Virus record (IMG/VR): IMGVR_UViG_3300044825_001141
Location: 1-41,646 of that record
Length of the DNA stretch: 41,646 nucleotides
Reading direction: 5' to 3' (one strand)
Source of the DNA: a virus
The notes under the pieces are model-generated. The model saw only the letters and a list, made by a program, of their open reading frames with translations, was not told where the DNA came from and did no database searches. A program made the translations under genes and the position numbers. Of this stretch, positions 3,501 to 41,646 are shown one piece after another; the first letter of the stretch is position 1, and each line of letters starts with the position of its first letter.

Positions 3501-4323
3501 CGGGCTCGACTTGGCTGGCATCAAGAAGCTGCACGCGGAATACGCCGAGCACGCGTACAAGAGCGATGCGGACCCAGACTGGGCGGACATGGCGCACGAA
3601 CATCGGGGCGAACTGCTGCTTGAAGTCGAGCGGCTGCGGGCCGAGGTCGCGGATGCTCGCGAGGTGCAGATGATCGCCGTGCGGCAGCGCGACAGGGCTA
3701 ACGATTCGTTCGTGTGGTTCGGCGGTCTCGACGACAAGGAACGCGTCGAGAAGGACGAGAACCACCGCCTGCGCGCGGCGCTGGATTCCGTCGTGAAGCA
3801 CTGGCGCGAGTTCGGGCCAGAGCACGGCTTCGACGAGACGCTAGAACGCGCCGCCCTCGCCGGAGGCGCGGAGGCGAAGCCGGACGCGAACATGGAGGCG
3901 CGCATAGACGCGGGCCTCGCGGAACTGCGTCGTAAGATCGACGCGGGCGACATTGAATGGCCGAGAGCCACCGAGCCTGCGTCAGAACCTCTCGCAATGG
4001 ATCGCGACGCGCAGATTCGGTGCTTCCGTGACTTGGAATTCGGGCCGCTCGACGTGGCGCTTGCGCAAGCGATGGAAGCCGCGCGTCAGGCGGCAATGCA
4101 TCGCGGCTTGGCCGATACCGCCGGAAAGCTCCAGTGGCTTAACGGTATCGCAGCGTGCGAGAAGGTCGAGCTATCGAACCGATGGAAAGAGGTCAGACCC
4201 TCGGATCAGCCCGACGATGGCCCGTCCTGTAGCTGCGGCAACCCGAACGCGCCGGGCATGTATCACCGCAAAGGTCGCGCGTGCTTCGCGCGGCCCTCGG
4301 ATCAAACGGAGGCGCGTCGATGA
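3493..4323 (+). CDS. Hypothetical helical protein with C-terminal Cys motif (276 aa)
   Basis: The start was chosen at ATG 3493 because AGGGAG lies just upstream and it overlaps the previous gene by only 8 bases; ATG 3466 is the alternative. The first 120 residues are mostly charged helix (ELLLEVERLRAEVADAREV) suggesting coiled coil. The C-terminal 45 residues contain CSCGNPNAPGMYH and a further Cys, a possible zinc site. It is the largest protein of the early block apart from the methyltransferase. Family unknown. Confidence 0.7.
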   Translation: MLNGLDLAGIKKLHAEYAEHAYKSDADPDWADMAHEHRGELLLEVERLRAEVADAREVQMIAVRQRDRANDSFVWFGGLDDKERVEKDENHRLRAALDSVVKHWREFGPEHGFDETLERAALAGGAEAKPDANMEARIDAGLAELRRKIDAGDIEWPRATEPASEPLAMDRDAQIRCFRDLEFGPLDVALAQAMEAARQAAMHRGLADTAGKLQWLNGIAACEKVELSNRWKEVRPSDQPDDGPSCSCGNPNAPGMYHRKGRACFARPSDQTEARR

Positions 4324-4535
4324 ATCTGCACCCCTGCCCGTTCTGTGGCGGCACGCCCGAGTGTCGCCGCGTAGGCAACGACCGCACGCGCCTGCGTTCG
4401 ATCATCGTTCGATGCCCGACGTGCCGCGTTGAGCGTACCGACTCAGGAATCCGCACCGGCTTCGACTGGTTGGAAGGCGTCGCGGAGAAGAACTGGAATC
4501 AGCGACCAGTTCCCATGAAGAGTGCGCCTCTGTGA
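4320..4535 (+). CDS. Lar-like restriction-alleviation zinc-ribbon protein
   Basis: ATG 4320 overlaps the previous stop as ATGA. The 71-residue product has the Lar family layout: N-terminal LHPCPFCGG, a second pair CPTC in the middle, and the closing helix AEKNWNQRP. Lar of the Rac prophage relieves type I restriction, so an anti-restriction role beside the methyltransferase is plausible. Many phage homologues have never been tested, so the activity is inferred from family resemblance. Confidence 0.8.
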   Translation: MNLHPCPFCGGTPECRRVGNDRTRLRSIIVRCPTCRVERTDSGIRTGFDWLEGVAEKNWNQRPVPMKSAPL

Positions 4536-4771
4536 AAAAGCGAACACCGGTCGAGCGGCTGCTTTCGGCAATGGACGCCTGCGCGGTCGCGCGCGCGGAG
4601 GCACTGTGGACGAACGGCTACCGAGCCGGTCGGCCTGACAAAGAGGCCGAGTTGCACGGCAAGGAAATGCGGCAGTGGGAGACCGTGCGACAGGTCGAGG
4701 GGCGTTTCCGCCGTGTCTGTAACGAAGTGCTGCGCGAGGCGCGGAAGCCGCAACGTGCGCGCAAGTCATAA
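4532..4771 (+). CDS. Hypothetical basic helical protein (79 aa)
   Basis: GTG 4532 overlaps the previous TGA as GTGA. The product is highly charged and apparently all-helical, with a basic C-terminus (REARKPQRARKS). No cysteine motif, membrane segment or known family is visible. It is placed in the early block by its overlaps and by codon use like its neighbours. Confidence 0.65.
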   Translation: MKKRTPVERLLSAMDACAVARAEALWTNGYRAGRPDKEAELHGKEMRQWETVRQVEGRFRRVCNEVLREARKPQRARKS

Positions 4772-9250: not shown

Positions 9251-11053
9251 CTATCGCGCCATGATGGACGCGGTACCCGCGGCCAACGGCGTTGAGTTGC
9301 GGGCACCGGTCAGGGCGTCGACGACCACGCGCTTCGGCGGCGTCTTGCCGAGAAGCACGGCGAGTTGTTCGGGATCCAGCAGAAGCTTCGCGAGCTCGGC
9401 GTCGACCTTCGGCGTCACTTCGCGACCGGCCATGCCGAGTACGGAGCGCGCGAGTAGGCCCGGCCGACTCAGCGTCGCGGGCAACGGCAGGTTGATCTCG
9501 CCCGCCTCCGCACCGGACACGTCGGTCGGACGGCCGGGCTTGTACGCGTTCTCGGCGGCGGTGACGGCGTTGTCGATCTGCTCCGACCGCGCGCTATACG
9601 TCTTGAGGTACGAGCGCCATGCGCCCTTCGCCTCATTCGGCAGCGCGTCCTCAATCGTCGCGTCGATCGCGTCTTTCAGCTTCGTGCGCAGTCCGCCGGC
9701 CAGTTTCTTGTCGAAGCTGGCGTTCTCGGTCAGCGACTTCTCGATCTCGTTGCCGACTTCCTTACGCAGCATGTACATGTCATGCGCGTTGATCGTGCCG
9801 TCGGGCGCGGTGATCTTCTTCAGCCGCGCGCTGATGCTGCTCATCGACTGCTGCACGACCGTCGATGCGCGCTCACCTGGCTTGGACAGAATCTTCGCGA
9901 TGGCGTCGTCCGCGTTCGTCGGCGTAACGGGTCTGCCGCCGCCGATGCCTTCGGTACGAAGCTTGTTCGCCTCCGCTGCCAGTTCGCCCTGGCGCTGCCG
10001 CGCACCGCCGCCGAAATCCTCGGCCACGGCGATGTCGCGCGGCGACATGAAGCGCGCTTCGATCTTGCGCGCCATGTTGTCCACGCCTTCGGTCGTCATG
10101 TTCGCGAGCGACAGCGCGTTGTCGCGCATCTCGCTGGTGAGTTCGTCGCGCGCTTTCTTTGCGCCTTCCAGCGCCCGCGCATTCCCCGAGTCCCGCTGCG
10201 CGAACATGACCGACGGATTGCCCGCGTCGCGGTTTCCTGCCCGGCGTGCGACCGTGCTTTCAAGGCTCTGGACGAGCGTGCCCTGATCGGTGCCCTGTAC
10301 CTGCTGCGCCGCCGTCGGCTTGTAGCCTTCGGGAAAGTTCCGCTGCGCCAGCAGCGCCTCGATGAGCGGCCCGCGATTCTCGTCCGCAACGAGGTCTTGC
10401 ACGGTGCGGCCGGCAATGCGCTGCGGGCCCTGCGCGCTGACGAGGTCGTACAGGTTCGATGCGCCACGGCCTGCCGCCCGAGCCAGTCCCGCGACCGGCC
10501 GAGCCGCGAGTTGGGCTGCTGCGATCGCAGGCGGCAGCGCGAGGCCCGCGGCGGCGCCGACGGCCGCGCCCTCGTTGCCGCCCTGCATGCGCTCACCGGG
10601 CTGCGCCGAGCCTGCGCCCGCCGCGTAGCCTGCGCCTGCACCCGCGGCACCCGACCGCGCCATGACCGTCGGCAGGCTCGCTGGCACCGCCGCGCCTCCC
10701 GTGGCGACCATCGACGGCACCATCGTCAGCGCCGTGCCTGTGCCTTCTGCGAGCGCCCCAGCGGTGGGATTCTCGGCCTTGAACCGATCGTCCTGCGCCG
10801 CCGTCTGGCTCCGCAGCGAGTCGTAGAGTTCGCCGAACGCGCGCGGGTCGCCTTGTAGTTTCTTCAGCACCGCATCCATGCCGCCAGCGATCTCGTCGGA
10901 CCAACCGAGCGTCGCGCCGCGCTGCACCATTCGGTACAGACCCTCGGCGATGCCCATCTGGCGAGCCTGCGGCTGCGCGGGTGCGCCGCCGGACGCCTTC
11001 GCCTCCAGTTCCGCCATCCGGCGCAGGGCCATCAATTCGTCGCGGTCGCTCAC
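9251..11053 (-). CDS. Large internal virion / ejection protein (600 aa)
   Basis: A long Ala/Gly-rich, mostly helical protein. Residues about 100-195 form a hydrophobic Ala/Gly-rich stretch (AAVGAAAGLALPPAIAAAQL) that could insert into or cross membrane. The remainder is charged helix (residues 250-530). Size, composition and position between the connector genes and the tail fibre match the ejection proteins of short-tailed phages that form a channel for DNA entry. Its start overlaps the end of the previous gene by 4 bases. Assignment by context. Confidence 0.65.
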   Translation of the reverse strand: MSDRDELMALRRMAELEAKASGGAPAQPQARQMGIAEGLYRMVQRGATLGWSDEIAGGMDAVLKKLQGDPRAFGELYDSLRSQTAAQDDRFKAENPTAGALAEGTGTALTMVPSMVATGGAAVPASLPTVMARSGAAGAGAGYAAGAGSAQPGERMQGGNEGAAVGAAAGLALPPAIAAAQLAARPVAGLARAAGRGASNLYDLVSAQGPQRIAGRTVQDLVADENRGPLIEALLAQRNFPEGYKPTAAQQVQGTDQGTLVQSLESTVARRAGNRDAGNPSVMFAQRDSGNARALEGAKKARDELTSEMRDNALSLANMTTEGVDNMARKIEARFMSPRDIAVAEDFGGGARQRQGELAAEANKLRTEGIGGGRPVTPTNADDAIAKILSKPGERASTVVQQSMSSISARLKKITAPDGTINAHDMYMLRKEVGNEIEKSLTENASFDKKLAGGLRTKLKDAIDATIEDALPNEAKGAWRSYLKTYSARSEQIDNAVTAAENAYKPGRPTDVSGAEAGEINLPLPATLSRPGLLARSVLGMAGREVTPKVDAELAKLLLDPEQLAVLLGKTPPKRVVVDALTGARNSTPLAAGTASIMAR

Positions 11054-21537: not shown

Positions 21538-23517
21538 TCAGTCTCCCAGAAGCAACCAGCTTTCTTCGTCCTCATCGAGCTCGCGTTCACGCTCGATGGC
21601 GCGCCACATCTGAAGTAGCGCGCCGACCGCTTCGGAGTCGCGCGTGAGTGCATTCCAGTCGACCGTCGCGGGTTCAGGAACCGACTTGCGTGGCGTCTCG
21701 GAGTACGGCTTGACTACCGACCCAGCGGCTTTCTTCTTGTCCGTGGTCGCGAGTGACTTGTAGACGACTTCTGCGACGACGTCGTCTAGGATCTTGTCAA
21801 TCTGCGCGTTCAGTTTGGGCTTGCGACGCTTCTTCGACTGGTAGTCGATCGATCCGCCACCGCCCATTCCCGCGCTGGGCAACTGAGGTCCGGTCGACGG
21901 TGCGATGAACGTGACGTCCCCGCCCGTCAGCGTGAACACGCCCGCTTCGGCTGTCAGGCGCGCGGATACGTCGGGCGTCAGCGTTATGTCGCTACCGGCG
22001 AGCGTGAATGCGCCAGAATCGAGCGCCAGCTGGCGCGCGGCCTGGAGCGTGACAGCCTGCCCCGACAGCGCGAACGAGCCCGCCGCCAGCGCGAGCGTGC
22101 GCGCGGCCCGCAGCCCGACATCTCCACCGGTCAGCGTAAACGTGCCGGCGTCCGCTGTGAGTGTCGCAGGCGAGCCGCTTGGCGTCAGCGTGACGTCGGA
22201 CCCGGTGAGCGTGAACGAGCCCGCAGCGAGCGCCAGGCGACGCTGTGCGGCCAGCCCGACCGCCGTGCCACTGAGGCTGAACGATCCCGCGGCCAGCGAC
22301 AGCGTACGGGCAGCGCGCAGGCCGACAGCCGTGCCGGACAGCGTGAACGAACCGGCGTCGAGCGGCAGGACGTATCCCTGCGCAAGCCCAACCGTTCCGC
22401 CAGTGAGCGTGAACGACCCTGCATCCGCCGTCAGCACCGGATCGGTGCCGCTCGGCGTTAGAGTGACGTCCTGCCCCGTCAGCGTGAACGACCCGGCCGC
22501 CAGCGCCATCGACAGGTCGCGCGCCGCATCGCTGCCGGTCAGGGTGAACGAGCCCGCCGAGATCGGCAGCACGTACCCTTGCCGCAGCGTCACCGCGCCG
22601 CCGGTCAGCGCGAACGAGCCGGCCTCTATGGTCAGCGTGTACGGTGAGCCCGACGGCGGCGCTTCGCCTGCGCCGATCCACCCTTCGCCGACGAACGACG
22701 TGGACGACCCGACGACCAGCCCGCCCGTCTGCGCCGACCCCTCGGCGAGTCCGACGTTGCTGCCCGTCAGCGTGAACGAACCGGCATCACACGTCAGCTT
22801 GAAGCGCCGGAACGTGATGTCGCCGCCGGTGAGCGTGAACGAACCGGCGTCGCACGGCATGGACGTGCCGCCGGTCGCGCCGTTGATCGACAGCGCGCCG
22901 ATCACCCACTGGTAATTCGAAATTGTGCCTTGCGAGTTCCGCGACCAGTCTGTGGTCACGCTCGCAGCGCCCGCCTCCCAGGACGAGCCAGCCGAAAGGA
23001 TGTTGTTGTAGTTCGCCTGGTCGAGAATCGTCTGCGCGCCGCCGGCCGTCATGCCGAACGTGCCGTCGAGGAAACGTCCGTGCCAGTCCAGCACGATCGC
23101 ATCGGTGCCGCTGGACACCGTGCCCGACGCAGCATCGGCCGTGCCGTTGCCGTCGGAGAACACCATCGTCCCGTTAGGCGTGCCGCTATCGACGCCCGCC
23201 ACGGAAACGGCTATTACGGCGATTTCACTGGTAGACGCCGCCGGAGTGGCGGTGATCGTCACCGTGCCCGCTGTTGGGCTCGTACTGCGGTAGACGTGGA
23301 GCCGCAGGAACGATTGCACCGCCGTCGAATCGCCGATGCTCGACAGCGCACCGCCGCCGCCGCTCGACGTGACCGAGGTCATGCCGCCGGGCGAACCGTC
23401 CGACAGGATGACGCCCACATACAGCACGTCGCCCGATGCAATCGTCAGGTTGCCGGTGGTGACGCTCGTCCCGGTGCCTACCGCGATAACGCTGTCGGTG
23501 ATGGTCGGTGCGGCCAT
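21538..23517 (-). CDS. Repeat-rich beta protein of the head module (659 aa)
   Basis: ATG 23517 overlaps the previous stop as TGATG. Residues 1-215 are a beta-sandwich-like domain (SGDVLYVGVILSD, IVLDWHGRFLDG). Residues about 220-540 hold 13 imperfect copies of an AGSFTLTGxDVxL motif spaced roughly 20-30 residues apart. The last 110 residues are charged and helical (KKRRKPKLNAQIDKILDD). The repeat is familiar from other phage head-module proteins and probably forms a stacked beta shaft, such as a head fibre. Copy number is likely to vary between relatives. Confidence 0.7.
   Translation of the reverse strand: MAAPTITDSVIAVGTGTSVTTGNLTIASGDVLYVGVILSDGSPGGMTSVTSSGGGGALSSIGDSTAVQSFLRLHVYRSTSPTAGTVTITATPAASTSEIAVIAVSVAGVDSGTPNGTMVFSDGNGTADAASGTVSSGTDAIVLDWHGRFLDGTFGMTAGGAQTILDQANYNNILSAGSSWEAGAASVTTDWSRNSQGTISNYQWVIGALSINGATGGTSMPCDAGSFTLTGGDITFRRFKLTCDAGSFTLTGSNVGLAEGSAQTGGLVVGSSTSFVGEGWIGAGEAPPSGSPYTLTIEAGSFALTGGAVTLRQGYVLPISAGSFTLTGSDAARDLSMALAAGSFTLTGQDVTLTPSGTDPVLTADAGSFTLTGGTVGLAQGYVLPLDAGSFTLSGTAVGLRAARTLSLAAGSFSLSGTAVGLAAQRRLALAAGSFTLTGSDVTLTPSGSPATLTADAGTFTLTGGDVGLRAARTLALAAGSFALSGQAVTLQAARQLALDSGAFTLAGSDITLTPDVSARLTAEAGVFTLTGGDVTFIAPSTGPQLPSAGMGGGGSIDYQSKKRRKPKLNAQIDKILDDVVAEVVYKSLATTDKKKAAGSVVKPYSETPRKSVPEPATVDWNALTRDSEAVGALLQMWRAIERERELDEDEESWLLLGD
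21905..22858 (-). repeat. Thirteen imperfect protein-level repeats (AGSFTLTG type)
   Basis: Within the 659-aa gene the motif (A/S)G(S/T/A)F(T/A/S)L(T/S)G recurs 13 times. DNA blocks such as CGTGAACGAACCGGCGTC recur among copies. The linkers alternate between TPSGxx, LRAARTL and AQGYVLPL types, suggesting growth by duplication of longer blocks. Confidence 0.85.
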
Positions 23518-31715: not shown

Positions 31716-32192
31716 TCACGCGACCCCGCCCCGGTCAGCGTCCGCGTCGCGATCCACGTCCAAGGCTGGCTCGGATGCTGGCAGGGCATGGGATGCGCTC
31801 GCCCTGCCCTGCACGCGCTCGACGACCACGTACGTCACAGGCCTGGCAGCCTCACCCCATGCCGCCGGCTGCCGCCGCTCAAGCCACTGCATCGCCGCGC
31901 GCGCGTCCGGCGGGCGGTACTCCCGGACGGTATGCACGTCGCCGAACCGATCGATCTTCTCGGACCAAGCCTCACCCCCGACCGCGGCGGAGTACAGCGC
32001 GCGCTGCACGCGGGCATCGTGCAGATCCGTCATCGGCTGGAGTACGTCGGGGGACGTGGCGACAGCGGCGACCGACAGCCCGGTAGCCGCGGCTATCTCC
32101 GCGTCGGTCATACCCGCGCGCGCGAGCTCGGCGACGGACGCGGGCAGCGTCGGTGCCGGGGGATCGTCGAATAGATCATCGGCTGTAGACAC
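31716..32192 (-). CDS. terS: Terminase small subunit candidate (158 aa)
   Basis: First gene of the late operon, upstream of the large terminase. GTG 32192 (MSTADDLFDDPP) is preferred; an in-frame TTG at 32228 would reach into the tandem repeats. Residues about 20-45 (VAELARAGMTDAEIAAATG) form an HTH like those that recognise the pac/cos site. The middle helix (ARVQRALYSAAVGGE) and KIDRFGDVHTVREY are typical of small terminases, and the WLERRQPAAWG helix is likewise characteristic. The 158 bases after its stop hold no supported gene. Confidence 0.8.
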   Translation of the reverse strand: MSTADDLFDDPPAPTLPASVAELARAGMTDAEIAAATGLSVAAVATSPDVLQPMTDLHDARVQRALYSAAVGGEAWSEKIDRFGDVHTVREYRPPDARAAMQWLERRQPAAWGEAARPVTYVVVERVQGRASASHALPASEPALDVDRDADADRGGVA

Positions 32193-32229
32193 GGCCCGGA
32201 CGGTAGCCGGGGTCAAGCGTGGCCGCAAC

Positions 32230-32283
32230 GGTTACCGGGGTTACAGCGGCTACAGCGGTTACCGGGGCTACAGGGGTTACACG
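32230..32283 (+). repeat. Tandem array of six 9-bp units (GGYTACMGS)
   Basis: Six consecutive 9-mers: GGTTACCGG, GGTTACAGC, GGCTACAGC, GGTTACCGG, GGCTACAGG and GGTTACACG. The period is exact. The shared core GGTTAC is the reverse complement of the GTAACC core in the dispersed elements to the right, so one protein could bind both groups. Confidence 0.9.
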
Positions 32284-32320
32284 CCAACGCCGTGACTAGC
32301 GCTTGACGGGCCGGTTACCG

Positions 32321-32543
32321 ACGCTGTAACCGAAACCCAAACGCTGTAACCGACCTAACCCATTGATAGCTCCCGGGACGGCACGCTCGTTACTATAGTT
32401 ACACCACTCATTAAGAGTAGTAGAAGAAAGTATAGGCTTTATAGAGACCCCCCGTAACCAACTGTAACGCTGTAACCGTGTAACCCAACACTGCCAGCAA
32501 AATCAATCACTTACCAGCAGTGTAGACAATGGTGCTGTAACCG
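32321..32543 (-). repeat. Dispersed iteron-like elements (ACGCTGTAACCG)
   Basis: The 12-mer ACGCTGTAACCG occurs identically at 32321-32332, 32341-32352 and 32467-32478, with an 11/12 copy (GTGCTGTAACCG) at 32532-32543. Partial cores (TGTAAC, GTAACC) occur at 32454-32460, 32463-32469 and 32479-32486. They flank the AT-rich core on both sides. Confidence 0.85.
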
Positions 32544-32649
32544 CGCCCGCGATGGCCCGTGCGCGCGCTTGGTCAACACTTGCGCGCCCGCGTGCGCAGA
32601 CTGTGACGGATCCGTGACGAAAGTCGCAATAAATGCATCAATGCCGGGC

Positions 32650-32677
32650 TTGACATGCGCTTAGGAATGTAGACAAT
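32650..32677 (+). promoter_or_regulatory. Sigma70-type promoter for the 32.7-35.2 kb operon
   Basis: A perfect -35 (TTGACA, 32650-32655) and a -10 (GACAAT, 32672-32677) are 16 bases apart. The -10 lies within TGTAGACAATGG, a 12-mer also present at 32521-32532. Transcription would start near 32684, so the first gene cannot begin at the ATG at 32676. Confidence 0.65.
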
Positions 32678-32711
32678 GGCTACACGGTCAAGGCGCCGTG
32701 AGGAGACACAC

Positions 32712-32879
32712 ATGGGCGGATACAGGGTGGTGGAAACGGGTACGGATCGCGTGATAGCGGTCTACGGATCGGCGGAGCTCGCGACTGCGCGGATGCGTCG
32801 GGAGCGTGCGCGCGGGGTGGCGTGCGATGTGCGGACGTGGACGTGGGGCGCTGCGGTGCTCGCGGCGGGTGCGCTGTGA
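32712..32879 (+). CDS. Small hypothetical protein (55 aa)
   Basis: ATG 32712 has GAGGAG upstream and lies after the predicted transcription start; an in-frame ATG at 32676 falls on the -10 box and is rejected. The product has a strand-turn-strand start (GYRVVETGTDRVIAVYGS) and an Arg-rich helix, resembling tiny phage early proteins of the DUF-type. It is coupled to the next gene by a GTGA overlap. Confidence 0.65.
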   Translation: MGGYRVVETGTDRVIAVYGSAELATARMRRERARGVACDVRTWTWGAAVLAAGAL

Positions 32880-34717: not shown

Positions 34718-35031
34718 GCGCGCACACACCGGGCCCTTGGGAAGTCATGCCGGCGCATCGCGCGGCGCCGCATACCGTGCGCGCCGTCGGTTCGTCGCTG
34801 TACGTCGCGACGACCGCAAGCGATTCCTACCGGACGCGCGACGAGGCCGCGGCTAACGCGCGCCTCATCGCCGCGGCGCCGGACATGCTCGCGGCGTTGC
34901 GCATGTGCCGCGACGCGGAGCGCGAGAGGCGCGCCAAGCTGCTACCGGGCGCGCCGGCAACCACGTACACCGACGCGCGGATAGCGGTGATATACGCCGC
35001 CATCGTCAAGGCCACGGGGAGCGCGCCATGA
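34714..35031 (+). CDS. Conserved phage protein of the HTPGPW / NARLIAAAP family (105 aa)
   Basis: ATG 34714 overlaps the previous stop as ATGA. HTPGPWEV at the start and AAANARLIAAAPDMLAALRM in the middle are the signature of a very common but uncharacterised small phage/prophage protein. The first part is beta-rich and the second helical. Function unknown; its abundance suggests a useful role during infection. Confidence 0.8.
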   Translation: MSAHTPGPWEVMPAHRAAPHTVRAVGSSLYVATTASDSYRTRDEAAANARLIAAAPDMLAALRMCRDAERERRAKLLPGAPATTYTDARIAVIYAAIVKATGSAP

Positions 35032-35225
35032 CCGCCCGCCGCCTCTCCCCCGACGCGGTGCGCGCCATCCGTGCGACGCTCGATGCTCGCAAGTTGCTAC
35101 CGACCGACGGCGAACTCGCGGCCCGCTACGGTGTCTCGCAGCGCACCGTGCGTGCCATCGGGCAACGCGTGCTATATCGGGACGTGCCCGACGCTACCGC
35201 GCCGCCTCCCGTTCCCATTCGCTGA
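35028..35225 (+). CDS. Small helix-turn-helix protein (65 aa)
   Basis: ATG 35028 is in an ATGA overlap. The core (DGELAARYGVSQRTVRAIGQ) is a clear HTH of the Trp-repressor/GntR-like type used by small phage regulators. It ends 32 bases inside the convergent primase-helicase gene (overlap 35194-35225). It may control the divergent early promoters. Confidence 0.75.
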   Translation: MTARRLSPDAVRAIRATLDARKLLPTDGELAARYGVSQRTVRAIGQRVLYRDVPDATAPPPVPIR

Positions 35226-37518
35226 ACGCGTCAATCTCCGGCCGGCCGTCCTCTACCTGGGGGACGGCCGGACGGGCCGCGGCTTGACCCGGTAGCCAGC
35301 GACGCACCGCGCGCCCGTGCTCTTTGCGCACCGCGGTGCGCCATCCTTCAAGCGTCAGGATCGCGCGCACGCGTCCGCTATCGCTCCCCGACTGCCGGTC
35401 GATCGCGACGTTGACCGCCTCGGATAGAACGTCCTCAATCCGCACGCCTACACCCTGCCGCGCGTTGGCATACGACATGATCGGCTCATGCCACGGATCG
35501 GACGCGCGCGCGCCGTCGATCAACTCGCGTGCATGCTCCACCGGCACATCCCACCATGACGCGCCCTCACGGTACCGCGCGACCGCCTCCGCGAATAGTT
35601 GGTCGCGGTGCTCGCGTACATAGCTCGTCTCGATCGCCGAGACGACCACGCGCCAGAAGCGGCGCGCGCCCGTGTCGTCTTTGACCCAGTCCGTGCGGTT
35701 GGTCGTTCCGACCATCACGCACATGCGCGGGAAGTCTTGCGCCGTGCGTCCGTACGGCGGCCGGTACGTGTCAATCCGGTTGCTGATGATCGCTTTGACT
35801 TTCTCCTGACCCGCACGCGTGAACGGGTCGAGCTCGGCCACTTCGACAAGCATCTTGCCGCGCATGCACTGCACGAAGTCTTTCGACAGTGGCGATTCTG
35901 TCGCTTCCGTGAACCACTCACCGCCGAGGATGCGACACACGGTCGACTTGCCGACGCCCTGCCCGCCTTCGAACACGGGCATCGTGTCGACCTGGCAGCC
36001 GGGCCGCATCACGCGCGCGACGATGGATAGCAGGAAGCAGCGACCGACCGCCATGTGGTAGGCGTCAACGGGCGTTCCGAACGTGCGCGGCAGCCAGCTA
36101 TCGAGCCGGGAGACGCCATCCCACGTCAGAGACGCAAGCCATTCTTGCGCGCAGTTGCGGCGCTGGCTCATCGCGTAGAGGTCGACCGCGGCCTGCACCT
36201 TGCCCAGCGTCATCTTATGAAGCTGTAAGTCGCGCTGTATGTACGCGAGATAGGCGGTGTAGTCGCTGTCGGTCAGCGGACGCGGCACGCCGTCGCGTGC
36301 GGTCATGGGCCGTTGCAGGAAGTCATCGAACCAGAACAACGGCGGGTTGTAGGCGAGAATGCGCAACACCGTGTCCTCATTCGCGGGCGGCGTGCCGTTA
36401 TTCTCGCGAGTCTCCAGCCCCATGACTTCCCACCGCTGGCGCTTGTCCATGCGGGTGACGTCGAGTCGTTGAGGCGCCGCCGGCAGGGACGCAAGACTCG
36501 GGGAAGGCTCGACCGAGTCCGAGGGTAGCGCGGTGGGCGCGTCCACTGCCGGCGGCGACGGATAGCGTACCACGCGGCCCGGCGCCGAGAGCCAGCGTTT
36601 CAGGTCCGCGCGATTCCATGTATCCGCGACCGCGTCGGCAAGATCCCAGCCGTCCGCCTCGCCTGTCGGTTGAATGATGCGGCCCGTGCATCCGAGCGCG
36701 ATCAACTTTTCCGCGACGCGCGCCATGCACTCGCGCCCTGGCGCATCGTTGTCCGGCCACAGGTTGACCGTGCGACCCTTGAGCGGCGACCAGTCGACGG
36801 TATCGACCGCCTTGGCACCGCCGGGCCACGTCATCAGCACTTGCGGCGCGACGATCGCGGCGCCCGCGTCGACACACTTCTCCCCTTCGACCAGCAACAC
36901 CGCGGCATCGGCCGGCGCTGCGGCGAGACGATCGAGCCCGTACAGCGGGCGGGGCTTGGGAAACGCCTTGCTCCGCCATCCGTCCGCGGTCCATATCCAC
37001 GGCGCGAACTGCTTGCGCGGCTCGGGGTCGTCCGCCGTCGGCGCGAGGTCATAGCGCGCCACGTAGCCGAGCACGCCGTCGGCGTCGGCATAGCGATACA
37101 GCGCCGTCGGTTCGCCGTGCGAGCGATGCCGCCCTGGCACGGGCGCATCGGCCGGGGGCCGCTGCAAGGGCGCGTCGAGCGCGGCGGCGCGCTCGGGCTT
37201 GGGGAGCCTGACCATAGGCGTGACCGCCGGGTGATGACCGTTGACGCGCTCGCCGCCGAGCTCGCGCGCCGCCTCGCCGTTGCGCATGCCGTGCGCCTTC
37301 GCGTACAGCGACACGAGCCCTTTTCCGCCCGTGCCCTCGGCGAAGTCTTTCCAGACGCCGGTTTTCAGGTTGATCGAGAGGGAATCACCGGGCTCGCCTT
37401 GCAACGAGCCGATGACCCACTCGTGCCCGCGGCGCTTGCCCTGCGGGAACCACTCGGGGACAAGGGTATCCGCGCGCGCGAGTAGGCCCGCGTCGACCGC
37501 ATCGAAGTCGATCGACAT
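35194..37518 (-). CDS. Primase-helicase with Toprim-like and VapE (SF3-type) domains (774 aa)
   Basis: Replication initiator. The N-terminal 100 residues resemble a primase zinc-less entry domain (GDSLSINLKTGVWKDFAEGT). A Toprim-like fold follows with LVEGEK at 208 and WPDNDAPGRE in which two Asp bind metal. The C-terminal domain is of the virulence-associated E type, with Walker A GGQGVGKST near residue 518, ISNRIDTYRPPYGR, and the arginine-rich sensor GTTNRTDWVKDDTGARRFW. It should unwind the origin and prime synthesis. It is the last gene of a four-gene minus-strand operon. Confidence 0.9.
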   Translation of the reverse strand: MSIDFDAVDAGLLARADTLVPEWFPQGKRRGHEWVIGSLQGEPGDSLSINLKTGVWKDFAEGTGGKGLVSLYAKAHGMRNGEAARELGGERVNGHHPAVTPMVRLPKPERAAALDAPLQRPPADAPVPGRHRSHGEPTALYRYADADGVLGYVARYDLAPTADDPEPRKQFAPWIWTADGWRSKAFPKPRPLYGLDRLAAAPADAAVLLVEGEKCVDAGAAIVAPQVLMTWPGGAKAVDTVDWSPLKGRTVNLWPDNDAPGRECMARVAEKLIALGCTGRIIQPTGEADGWDLADAVADTWNRADLKRWLSAPGRVVRYPSPPAVDAPTALPSDSVEPSPSLASLPAAPQRLDVTRMDKRQRWEVMGLETRENNGTPPANEDTVLRILAYNPPLFWFDDFLQRPMTARDGVPRPLTDSDYTAYLAYIQRDLQLHKMTLGKVQAAVDLYAMSQRRNCAQEWLASLTWDGVSRLDSWLPRTFGTPVDAYHMAVGRCFLLSIVARVMRPGCQVDTMPVFEGGQGVGKSTVCRILGGEWFTEATESPLSKDFVQCMRGKMLVEVAELDPFTRAGQEKVKAIISNRIDTYRPPYGRTAQDFPRMCVMVGTTNRTDWVKDDTGARRFWRVVVSAIETSYVREHRDQLFAEAVARYREGASWWDVPVEHARELIDGARASDPWHEPIMSYANARQGVGVRIEDVLSEAVNVAIDRQSGSDSGRVRAILTLEGWRTAVRKEHGRAVRRWLPGQAAARPAVPQVEDGRPEIDAFSEWEREAAR

Positions 37519-37522
37519 GGAA

Positions 37523-37708
37523 CTATCTCCGGGACGTGCTCGCCAGCTTCAGGAGCTTCAATGCATGGCCCGGCACGTTTCGTGTGCCGCACATCCACGC
37601 GCGAACCGTCTGCGGATTCCGTTCCACGATTTCGGCCACTTCGGTCGCTTTGAGTCCGCGCGTCGACATGAACCGCCGCAACTCATCCCTTCTCTGTTTC
37701 GCGCTCAT
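37523..37708 (-). CDS. Small helix-turn-helix protein (61 aa)
   Basis: ATG 37708 has GGAGG nine bases upstream and is preferred over an in-frame start at 37744. The chain has an HTH like Cro/CI-type repressors (LKATEVAEIVERNPQTVRAW), then CGTRNVPGHALKLLK, typical of one-domain phage HTH proteins. It lies between the nuclease and primase-helicase genes; a role in copy control is possible. Confidence 0.75.
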   Translation of the reverse strand: MSAKQRRDELRRFMSTRGLKATEVAEIVERNPQTVRAWMCGTRNVPGHALKLLKLASTSRR

Positions 37709-38054
37709 CGCGCTTGCCCTCCAGTAGTTCCGCCGCATCGTCAACGGAGCGGATCACGCCCGCGATGCCGCCCGCGTCGCGGATATGGCGAATGAACGCC
37801 GATTGAGCGTTGGTCGTCCGCCCGGTTTTCGATTTGCCTTCAAGCGCCACAAACACAGCGACACGCTGCCCGACCATGTCCGGTGTGATGGTCACGGACT
37901 GGTAGCCGATCAGGTCCGACGATCCCTCGCACAGTCCGAACTTGACCGGACGGCCGAAGCCGTCGAACAACATCCCGACGTTATTGCGCCAAAGTCTACA
38001 GGTGCCGTGGCAGAACGCAAGCCGCACCCGCTGGATGAGGTCCGTTTCGCTCAT
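37683..38054 (-). CDS. VRR-NUC domain nuclease (123 aa)
   Basis: ATG 38054 overlaps the helicase stop as ATGA. It is a stand-alone VRR-NUC (PD-(D/E)xK-like) nuclease: RLWRNNVGML, then the catalytic GSSDLIGYQ, then VALEGKSKTGR (Glu and Lys), then QSAFIRHIRDAGGIAGVIRS. Phage VRR-NUC proteins are thought to cut branched DNA, and it is coupled here to an SF2 helicase. The length is normal for the family. Confidence 0.9.
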   Translation of the reverse strand: MSETDLIQRVRLAFCHGTCRLWRNNVGMLFDGFGRPVKFGLCEGSSDLIGYQSVTITPDMVGQRVAVFVALEGKSKTGRTTNAQSAFIRHIRDAGGIAGVIRSVDDAAELLEGKRDERETEKG

Positions 38055-39463
38055 CCCGCCCTCCGCGACTGCTTCGCCATGCGCGCGTCGATTATGTGGC
38101 GCGCCCACGCCGCGGGATCTTTATAGCCCCGCATCGTGCCGAGTTCGATCAGCTTGCGCATGTCGGTCGCCCGCCCTTGCTCTTGCCGCGCGGCGCGCTG
38201 CTCGGGCGTGAAGATGCGCGCGGACGTGATCTCCTGGAGTTCGCCGTCGACGCGATCGACTTTGCGTGCCTGTAGAGGAAATGGATGTCCGCAAGATCGG
38301 CAGACAGTGACACCAGATGGACTAGCAGCGAAGCAAGTGCTGCATACCCGGACGGAGACAGCGCCGTCGCTTGCAGCGCGCTTAGATCGCCTCTCACGGC
38401 CGTCAAGAGTCCACTCACGCGGCTCAGTCGGGAGCCCATGACGGAGAGTGTTTCCGGCATGGTCGAGGATGATCGCATCGCTCTTTCCATCAGCAGTTCG
38501 TAAGCACCGCCCGACTTGTTGAAGCCAAAGCCCCGCACTGGCGGTGGGTCGCAGGCTGATACCGCACTCGATCGCCGGGAGGTCGAAGCCTTCCGAGATG
38601 AGATCGCACGATGTGATGACATCTATTTTCCTCTCCCGGAACGCAGCCACGATGCGCCGTCGCTCCATGTGGTCCATCGCGCCGTCGATGCGTACGGCGA
38701 CGTATCCCGCGTCGGTGAATTGTGCCGCGACATGCTGCGCGTGGTCGATTGACACGCAGAATGCAACGCCCAAGCGACCGCGCGCCAGTCTCGTGTAGTG
38801 GTCAACGGCGTCTCCTGTGATCTTAGGCTTGTCCGCCGCGGCGATGAGTTCCGCGACCGCGAAGTCTCCCGCGCGCATATGCAGGCTCGACGTGTCGATG
38901 CCTGGCGGTGCATATACACGGACCGGGCACAGCGCGCCGAGGTCCATAAGCTCTTGCGTCGTCGGCCCGATGACCATGCGTTCGAACACTTCGCCGAGCC
39001 CTTCGCCCGACAGGCGCACAGGGGTCGCGGTGACGCCGAGCACGCGCGCTTTCGGGAACGCCGAAAGTATCTGACCGAGCGTGTTTTTGCGCGTCGTGTG
39101 ATGCGCTTCGTCGATGACGATGAGGTCCGGCGGAACAGTGCGCTGGAGTCGCCGCACGACGGACGCCGTCGAGCCGACCTGTACCATCGCACGCGGGCGC
39201 TCGTAGTAGCCCGCAGCGATGAATCCGTGATCCACGTCGAAGCTCTTGAGCGCACTAGAAATCTGGTCTACGAGTTCCTGCCGATGCGCGAGGATCAATA
39301 CCCGGTTGCCGCGCCGCATCGCGCCATGCGTGACGTAGGCGAAGCACACCGTCTTACCCGCCCCGGTGGGCATGACCAATAGAACGCGCCGCGCCTCTCT
39401 GAACGCGGCCCGGACGCGGGTGATGGCGTCCTCCTGATACGGTCTTAAAATGGGTGTTGACAT
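38051..39463 (-). CDS. SF2 DEAH helicase with C-terminal zinc knuckle (470 aa)
   Basis: Helicase motifs are clear: LRPYQEDAI (Q-motif), MPTGAGKT at 31-38 (Walker A), IDEAHHT with DEAH at 118-121, VTATP (motif III), and the second lobe with SEGFDLPA and QQVGRCLRT (motifs V and VI). Residues about 370-400 hold a four-Cys zinc knuckle (CSTCF and CRSCG). This is the type of phage helicase paired with VRR-NUC, likely for recombination-dependent replication or branch processing. It is the first gene of the operon, starting at ATG 39463. Confidence 0.93.
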   Translation of the reverse strand: MSTPILRPYQEDAITRVRAAFREARRVLLVMPTGAGKTVCFAYVTHGAMRRGNRVLILAHRQELVDQISSALKSFDVDHGFIAAGYYERPRAMVQVGSTASVVRRLQRTVPPDLIVIDEAHHTTRKNTLGQILSAFPKARVLGVTATPVRLSGEGLGEVFERMVIGPTTQELMDLGALCPVRVYAPPGIDTSSLHMRAGDFAVAELIAAADKPKITGDAVDHYTRLARGRLGVAFCVSIDHAQHVAAQFTDAGYVAVRIDGAMDHMERRRIVAAFRERKIDVITSCDLISEGFDLPAIECGISLRPTASAGLWLQQVGRCLRTADGKSDAIILDHAGNTLRHGLPTEPREWTLDGRERRSKRAASDGAVSVRVCSTCFAASPSGVTVCRSCGHPFPLQARKVDRVDGELQEITSARIFTPEQRAARQEQGRATDMRKLIELGTMRGYKDPAAWARHIIDARMAKQSRRAG

Positions 39464-41382: not shown

Positions 41383-41646
41383 GTGACCAAGACACTCGAC
41401 CACGAGGTTGCGGAACGGGAAATGGACTGCACCATCGCTCAGATGGTGCGGTTTACCCCGCTTATCGCGAACTCGACAGACGACGCCATGCGTCTCATGA
41501 CGCCACCGGACTTCGCGACGTGGGCGATGCACGCAGGCGACGATGACCTGATCGACGCCATTTGCGACGCCCCGCGCGGCGAGCTCACGGAGCGCGTCTC
41601 CAAGGCGTTCGCCACGTCCAATCCGGCGATCGTCACGGACTGGCTG
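41383..41646 (+). CDS. Hypothetical protein, 5' part of the gene crossing the contig ends
   Basis: GTG 41383 lies nine bases after the RecT stop, with TAGGAGCG as ribosome site. The frame stays open to the window end and continues in frame at position 136 on the other side of the redundancy, giving 120 residues in all. The visible N-terminus is helical and acidic (LDHEVAEREMDCTIAQ). Function unknown. Confidence 0.8.
   Translation, partial: MTKTLDHEVAEREMDCTIAQMVRFTPLIANSTDDAMRLMTPPDFATWAMHAGDDDLIDAICDAPRGELTERVSKAFATSNPAIVTDWL
41521..41646. repeat. Right copy of 126-bp terminal redundancy
   Basis: Identical to bases 10-135. Removing one copy and the adapter joins the 120-codon gene perfectly and yields a circular map of about 41,511 bp. 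Confidence 0.9.

Follow-up and report, generated by a model that had tools for sequence, protein, structure and literature searches.

What does a short non-coding stretch between two divergent operons do for a phage, and which protein reads it? This question is raised by positions 32193-32711 of the virus record IMGVR_UViG_3300044825_001141, which was analyzed over its whole length of 41,646 bases and is called the window below. A first-pass annotation had proposed a candidate replication origin or master operator at this place. The proposed origin is well supported by the repeated boxes of the region, their AT-rich core, the association of comparable arrays with VapE genes and the covariation of box and VapE sequences, and 32230-32542 is very probably a replication origin read by the VapE primase-helicase of the phage.

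Since bases 10-135 of the window recur exactly at 41521-41646 (a 126-bp terminal repeat), the genome is circular or circularly permuted, with a length of ~41,511 bp. The first nine bases, TTCCGATCT, resemble a sequencing-adapter tail, and the record probably represents a complete circular or permuted genome, although it notes no end repeat.

As first described, 32193-32711 separates a leftward late operon, which begins with the terminase genes, from a rightward early operon. The first late gene encodes the terminase small subunit (31716-32192, minus strand); its start codon is uncertain, the frame being open to 32228. Ahead of the early operon, a promoter-like TTGACA-N16-GACAAT is found at 32650-32677 on the plus strand, as a consensus match only. 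The -10 element of this site is overlapped by the second of two exact copies of TGTAGACAATGG (32521-32532 and 32668-32679, 147 bp apart), the only ones in the window and possibly a regulatory site. An inverted repeat, ACACTGC ... GCAGTGT (32488-32523), lies immediately ahead of the last box and might be an operator. Within the early operon, the product of gene 33461-34180 matches both PHROG 3007, named RusA-like, and PHROG 947, a DNA polymerase processivity factor; the former name may be misleading, as tblastn with this product returns phage beta-clamp genes.

Box array and AT-rich core

The repeat array at 32230-32542 is real. It had been read as six exact GGYTACMGS 9-mers and four 12-mers, ACGCTGTAACCG, with inverse orientation. 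The orientations are indeed opposed, but 9-mers and 12-mers are one motif, CTGTAACC, and not two repeat types. Five of the 9-mers are exact (32230, 32239, 32248, 32257 and 32266), the sixth (32275, GGTTACACG) carrying one mismatch. Similarly, the 12-mer is exact at 32321, 32341 and 32467, while the fourth copy (32532) has in common only the 10-mer GCTGTAACCG.

Box orientation is fully sorted, seven minus-strand boxes (32230-32313) being followed by seven plus-strand boxes (32324-32535). The former comprise six head-to-tail boxes with a 9-bp period (32230-32282) and a seventh, CGGTAACC, at 32313-32320. The latter start with an exact CTGTAACC at 32324-32331, where the orientation switches, and continue with a second exact box (32344-32351), four boxes within 32452-32485 (32452, 32462, 32470 and 32478) and a last exact box (32535-32542). 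With up to one mismatch, 14 copies of the motif fall within these 313 bp and 28 in the whole window, compared to a mean of 12.8 and a maximum of 21 in 100 shuffles of the whole window; the exact copies, five in the window, all lie inside the array. The pentamer GTTAC/GTAAC is likewise concentrated, 14 of its 23 copies in the window falling in the 519 bp (Poisson P ~6e-25 at the outside rate). Perfect sorting of orientation would occur by chance with a probability of ~6e-4 if the copies were independent, which the six tandem ones are not.

A box density so far above chance argues against a fortuitous or coding micro-repeat, for instance one in frame 32056-32295, in which the 9-mers would be read as GYRGYSGYSGYRGY. 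The in-frame 9-bp period of six boxes would fit such a repeat, but seven further boxes are opposite in orientation and outside this frame, and box spacing varies in relatives, so that this explanation is hardly credible. The plus-strand open frame 32056-32295, which reads the 9-mers as GYRGYSGYSGYRGYRGY, is probably a by-product of the array. Elsewhere in the window, a coding repeat (TCGTTCA, ~66-bp spacing) occupies 22212-22545 within the large late gene 21538-23517. A search of viral_contigs for paired GCTGTAACCG patterns returned 54 loci, none of which was kept as a relative: 53 of them have copies at intervals divisible by three, as coding repeats would, and the remaining one (L115) is a 20-bp tandem duplication with no other such boxes nearby.

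The boxes surround an AT-rich core (32360-32460), a candidate unwinding element. As the first-pass annotation had pointed out, this stretch stands out in a GC-rich genome, with 46.5% GC against 65.9% overall, and by nearest-neighbor energies no other 80 bp of the record are as unstable as those beginning at 32387. In several relatives (L153, L165, L173 and L158), CTATACTAATACACATG and/or an alternating ACACACAC run is frequent in the core next to the inner boxes and may be a conserved unwinding element.

Plus-strand boxes lie next to the core on both sides, and inward-facing pairs are not formed in the window. In most relatives displayed, by contrast, the boxes face inwards around the core, although Burkholderia phage Mica is mixed too. 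This mixed polarity and the distance from the VapE gene are the main oddities of the window array.

Other signatures of origins were considered. GC skew had been suggested as a check, and its cumulative minimum does fall as predicted, at 31983; however, transcription diverges at the same point, so that the minimum is not diagnostic, and GC skew was dropped as evidence because it tracks gene orientation. The region folds unremarkably as a single strand (z -1.22), which gives no support to a large hairpin origin. Nor does the region resemble a DnaA-dependent, oriC-like origin, no DnaA box (TTWTNCACA, at most one mismatch) being found in 32000-32800.

The VapE primase-helicase and its linkage to arrays

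In agreement with the first-pass annotation, the phage encodes its own primase-helicase. The Toprim-VapE gene lies at 35194-37518 on the minus strand, and its product combines a Toprim domain, a VapE helicase and a predicted C-terminal winged helix, an architecture from which an initiator is inferred. The VapE domain is clear (residues 461-662, Pfam E 2e-68), the Toprim match weak. By sequence, the best solved structure is 7pds (E 2.8e-34), titled 'The structure of PriRep1 with dsDNA', PriRep1 being a SaPI protein; another entry, 7ola, is titled SaPI5. An AlphaFold model built from 26 sequences (mean pLDDT 84.8, pTM 0.50) aligns with 7pds along residues 360-751 (Z 31.1, 388 residues, rmsd 3.4), and its N-terminal part (~112-320) matches DnaG primase folds (Z 11.6-14.7). 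Residues 677-743 show the winged-helix order of elements, with three helices and two strands. PDB 1KA8, the origin-binding domain of P4 alpha, is absent among the matches listed for this protein in the sequence and fold comparisons.

The array lies 2651 bp from the VapE stop codon, with early genes in between, and adjoins the terminase gene. To which of the two it belongs was addressed in loci selected solely for encoding VapE relatives (the best 80 from viral contigs and the best 80 from bacterial genomes). A strict detector, which replaced a first simple one without a rate model that caught GC-rich coding noise, looks for short repeats in two sorted orientations and scores them by a Poisson model relative to the rate in the locus itself. 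It gave the window array a score of 21.5, the next best in the window reaching 5.5. Among the 160 loci, 51 strong arrays (score at least 8) were found, 40 of which fall in the interval from -100 to +1500 bp relative to the 3' end of VapE, where 5.5 would be expected if arrays were evenly spread. Such scores occur in 46 of these 160 VapE loci as opposed to 3 of 76 TerL-found loci without VapE, one of these three (L008) looking like a coding repeat. TerL-found loci that do contain VapE vary: two (L011 and L012) have an array at the VapE 3' end, L055 has a match far from VapE and L062 has none.

Because many of the 160 loci are near-duplicates, especially Pseudomonas prophages, the count was repeated on a non-redundant set of 74 loci (<60% VapE identity, picked by length), 71 of them with enough sequence. 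The strict detector found 15 near and 5 far arrays in the 74 loci, for 2.1 near expected (binomial 1.6e-11); at a score of 8, a near array is present in only 15 of the 71. As this detector scores the mixed-orientation clusters of phage P4 poorly, an orientation-free version was made; with P4 as positive control, it detected the two annotated clusters. Under this version, 44 of the 71 non-redundant loci have their maximum close to the 3' end of VapE (7.5 expected); the other 27 may have arrays elsewhere, as in the window, or none. Ten of the loci (L204, L205, L211, L228, L265, L278, L280, L289, L292 and L297), several titled Pseudomonas, have common TGTCCTAC/TGTCCCAC arrays ~384 bp 3' of VapE, which are predicted origins.

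What else accompanies the arrays bears on other possible readers of the boxes. In the 46 array loci besides the window, in all of which VapE is present by selection, relatives of the window's DEAD helicase occur in 9, of its VRR-NUC nuclease in 8, of an HTH protein in 1 and of its large terminase subunit in 1, those of all other tested window proteins occurring in none. An operator array, on which a phage repressor or activator would set the early/late transcription switch, would suit the divergent control region, the promoter-like site ahead of the early operon, the position of the tandem boxes 38-90 bp upstream of the first late gene and the two small HTH proteins encoded in the window (37523-37744 and 34905-35225). 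However, relatives of these proteins, which had been suggested as partners for gel shifts, occur in 1 and 0 of the 46 array loci, respectively, and they are unlikely to be the box binders; in addition, the arrays of most relatives lie 3' of VapE (best 80 + 80 loci) and over 100 bp separate the last box from the early promoter-like site. An operator as the main function is thus unlikely, though the initiator may have an autoregulatory side-effect at the boxes.

Covariation and the replication module

Box and VapE sequences vary together. In the 15 strict non-redundant loci, without the window, box similarity correlates with VapE similarity (Spearman 0.515, 0/5000 permutations). The correlation is weaker in a set of 27 loci including the window (Spearman 0.206, 2/5000 permutations), to which seven loci, all left out of the strict 15-locus test, were admitted by hand under looser criteria: for the window, L155, L142 and L227 a distance from VapE of up to 4000 bp was allowed, for L147-L149 a threshold of 6.5. 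Divided by VapE domain, the signal resides in the AAA+ part (1/5000 permutations) and the C-terminus (39/5000), and not in the N-terminal Toprim part (2878/5000). This covariation could also arise if box and VapE were inherited together as a module, with no direct contact between them.

For the window alone, box similarity to 26 loci rises with VapE similarity (Spearman 0.69). L173 has both the closest VapE of the 26 (41% identity) and the closest box, TGTAACCC, which has TGTAACC in common with the window, and the boxes of L152, L155 and L158 contain TGTTACC. Lack of conservation in close relatives had been named as a refutation of the origin; instead, relatives of the replication module share both this type of array and its box core. 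Close VapE relatives with deviating boxes also exist, namely L153 (42%, TCTACACG) and L154 (40%, TGTTTCCG).

No close relatives of the whole phage were found in the collections searched. Single queries with the small terminase, VapE and clamp genes returned no relatives from viral_contigs, where VapE relatives surfaced only with an alignment query. Among these relatives, L155 is a mirror image of the window, with DEAD helicase, VRR-NUC, VapE, convergent early genes, array and terminase. Its DEAD helicase has 50% identity to that of the window (DEAD/ResIII, 38051-39463, minus strand), its early genes include the same PHROG 1273 protein and its boxes read TGTTACCC. The VRR-NUC nuclease of the window (37683-38108, minus strand), like the helicase part of the replication module, has a Pfam score slightly below the curated cut-off. 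L155 retains this layout with a large terminase of another family (PHROG 38, PHROG 2 in the window), which speaks for the array being part of the replication module.

The same locus weighs against terminase recognition, in which the adjoining small subunit would bind the boxes and packaging would start at the array as a pac or cos site. The array is directly upstream of the small subunit gene, and a circularly permuted or circular contig, with its 126-bp terminal repeat after a 9-bp adapter remnant, fits headful packaging. Nevertheless, the array persists in L155 beside a different terminase, TerL-selected loci rarely have one (3/76 without VapE), and the large subunit has a relative in 1 of 46 array loci, the small subunit, too divergent to trace in relatives, having a detectable one in none. 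A packaging site is therefore unlikely.

Four named phages, Mica, Marinobacter phage PS3, Pseudomonas phage vB_Pae_U5 and Acidithiobacillus phage AcaML1, have short boxes in two orientations beside or near a VapE-type gene; their box sequences differ from those of the window, and the array is annotated as an origin in none of the stretches shown. In Mica, which has the DEAD, VRR-NUC, HTH and VapE module in common with the window, TGTCACC boxes lie around an AT-rich core 2.8 kb beyond VapE. In podovirus ctHz2215 (L150), AGTGGCTA-type boxes, located by eye, occupy a divergent region ahead of VapE. No clear array was detected in Acidovorax phage Aval (L143) and Variovorax phage VarioGold (L144).

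With array, core, protein architecture (from sequence and predicted fold), VapE linkage and box/VapE covariation established here, a course of initiation at the proposed origin can be outlined. We infer that the Toprim-VapE primase-helicase would bind all fourteen CTGTAACC boxes, the C-terminal winged helix being the most likely point of contact, and that a VapE multimer assembled on the two oppositely oriented box groups would melt the AT-rich core at 32360-32460. The AAA+ helicase ring would then be loaded on the opened strands, and synthesis would be primed by the Toprim domain or by host enzymes.

More broadly, it is somewhat more likely than not that VapE primase-helicases of Gram-negative phages and prophages are self-loading initiators, each reading its own short iteron, that box and protein co-evolve as a recognition code and that the window is a case in which the origin sits in the early/late control region. 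If so, origins could be predicted from VapE sequence and 3' flank in a large unmapped set of phages, and the position of the window origin in a divergent control region would couple the start of replication to the transcription switch. Many phages and prophages have such arrays together with their VapE genes, whose name says no more than 'virulence-associated protein E', and the covariation of box and protein offers natural pairs for dissecting initiator specificity. For a phage without a close sequenced relative in the collections searched, the window itself supplies a specific origin and initiator that can be put to the test.

Comparison with known origin systems

A literature search, from which subscription journals were mostly absent, found nothing on origins of VapE-encoding phages, and the window was compared to better known systems. 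Plasmid iteron origins and lambda ori consist of tandem short binding sites beside an AT-rich element. The window has both features, with 14 boxes in 313 bp of non-coding DNA and an adjacent, easily melted AT-rich element; no RepA- or O-type initiator was identified among the window proteins searched.

Satellite phage P4 offers a likeness of architecture. Its alpha protein and the window VapE are primase-helicases of similar length (777 and 774 aa), and the window protein has, as expected for a P4-type initiator, a Toprim primase fused to a helicase and a predicted winged helix. In the P4 record, 'ori type 1 repeats' are annotated in crr (4291-4590), just 3' of the alpha primase gene (end 4636), and again at 9310-9413 within the annotated origin. 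They read CTGTTCACC, which resembles CTGTAACC, and as in the window their orientation is mixed and their surroundings AT-rich. Alpha is reported to bind these repeats through its winged helix (PMC4234260). P4 has two clusters, ori and crr, whereas the window has one array.

SaPI origins are reported to contain iterons, to follow directly downstream of the gene for the rep helicase and to be recognized by the C-terminal domain of that helicase (PMC7581432). The window resembles this system in that its iterons are paired with a PriRep/VapE-type initiator helicase that has a predicted C-terminal DNA-binding domain (7pds match). It differs in that its VapE protein carries an N-terminally fused DnaG-like Toprim domain, unlike SaPI Rep/PriRep, and in that its array is 2.65 kb away behind the early operon and not directly downstream, the place reported for SaPIs; a location directly 3' of VapE is, however, found in many relatives (best 80 + 80 loci). 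Because neither the directly downstream position of SaPIs nor the two clusters of P4 are present, the window array is assigned to no narrower class than that of iteron-type origins, its initiator being P4/SaPI-like.
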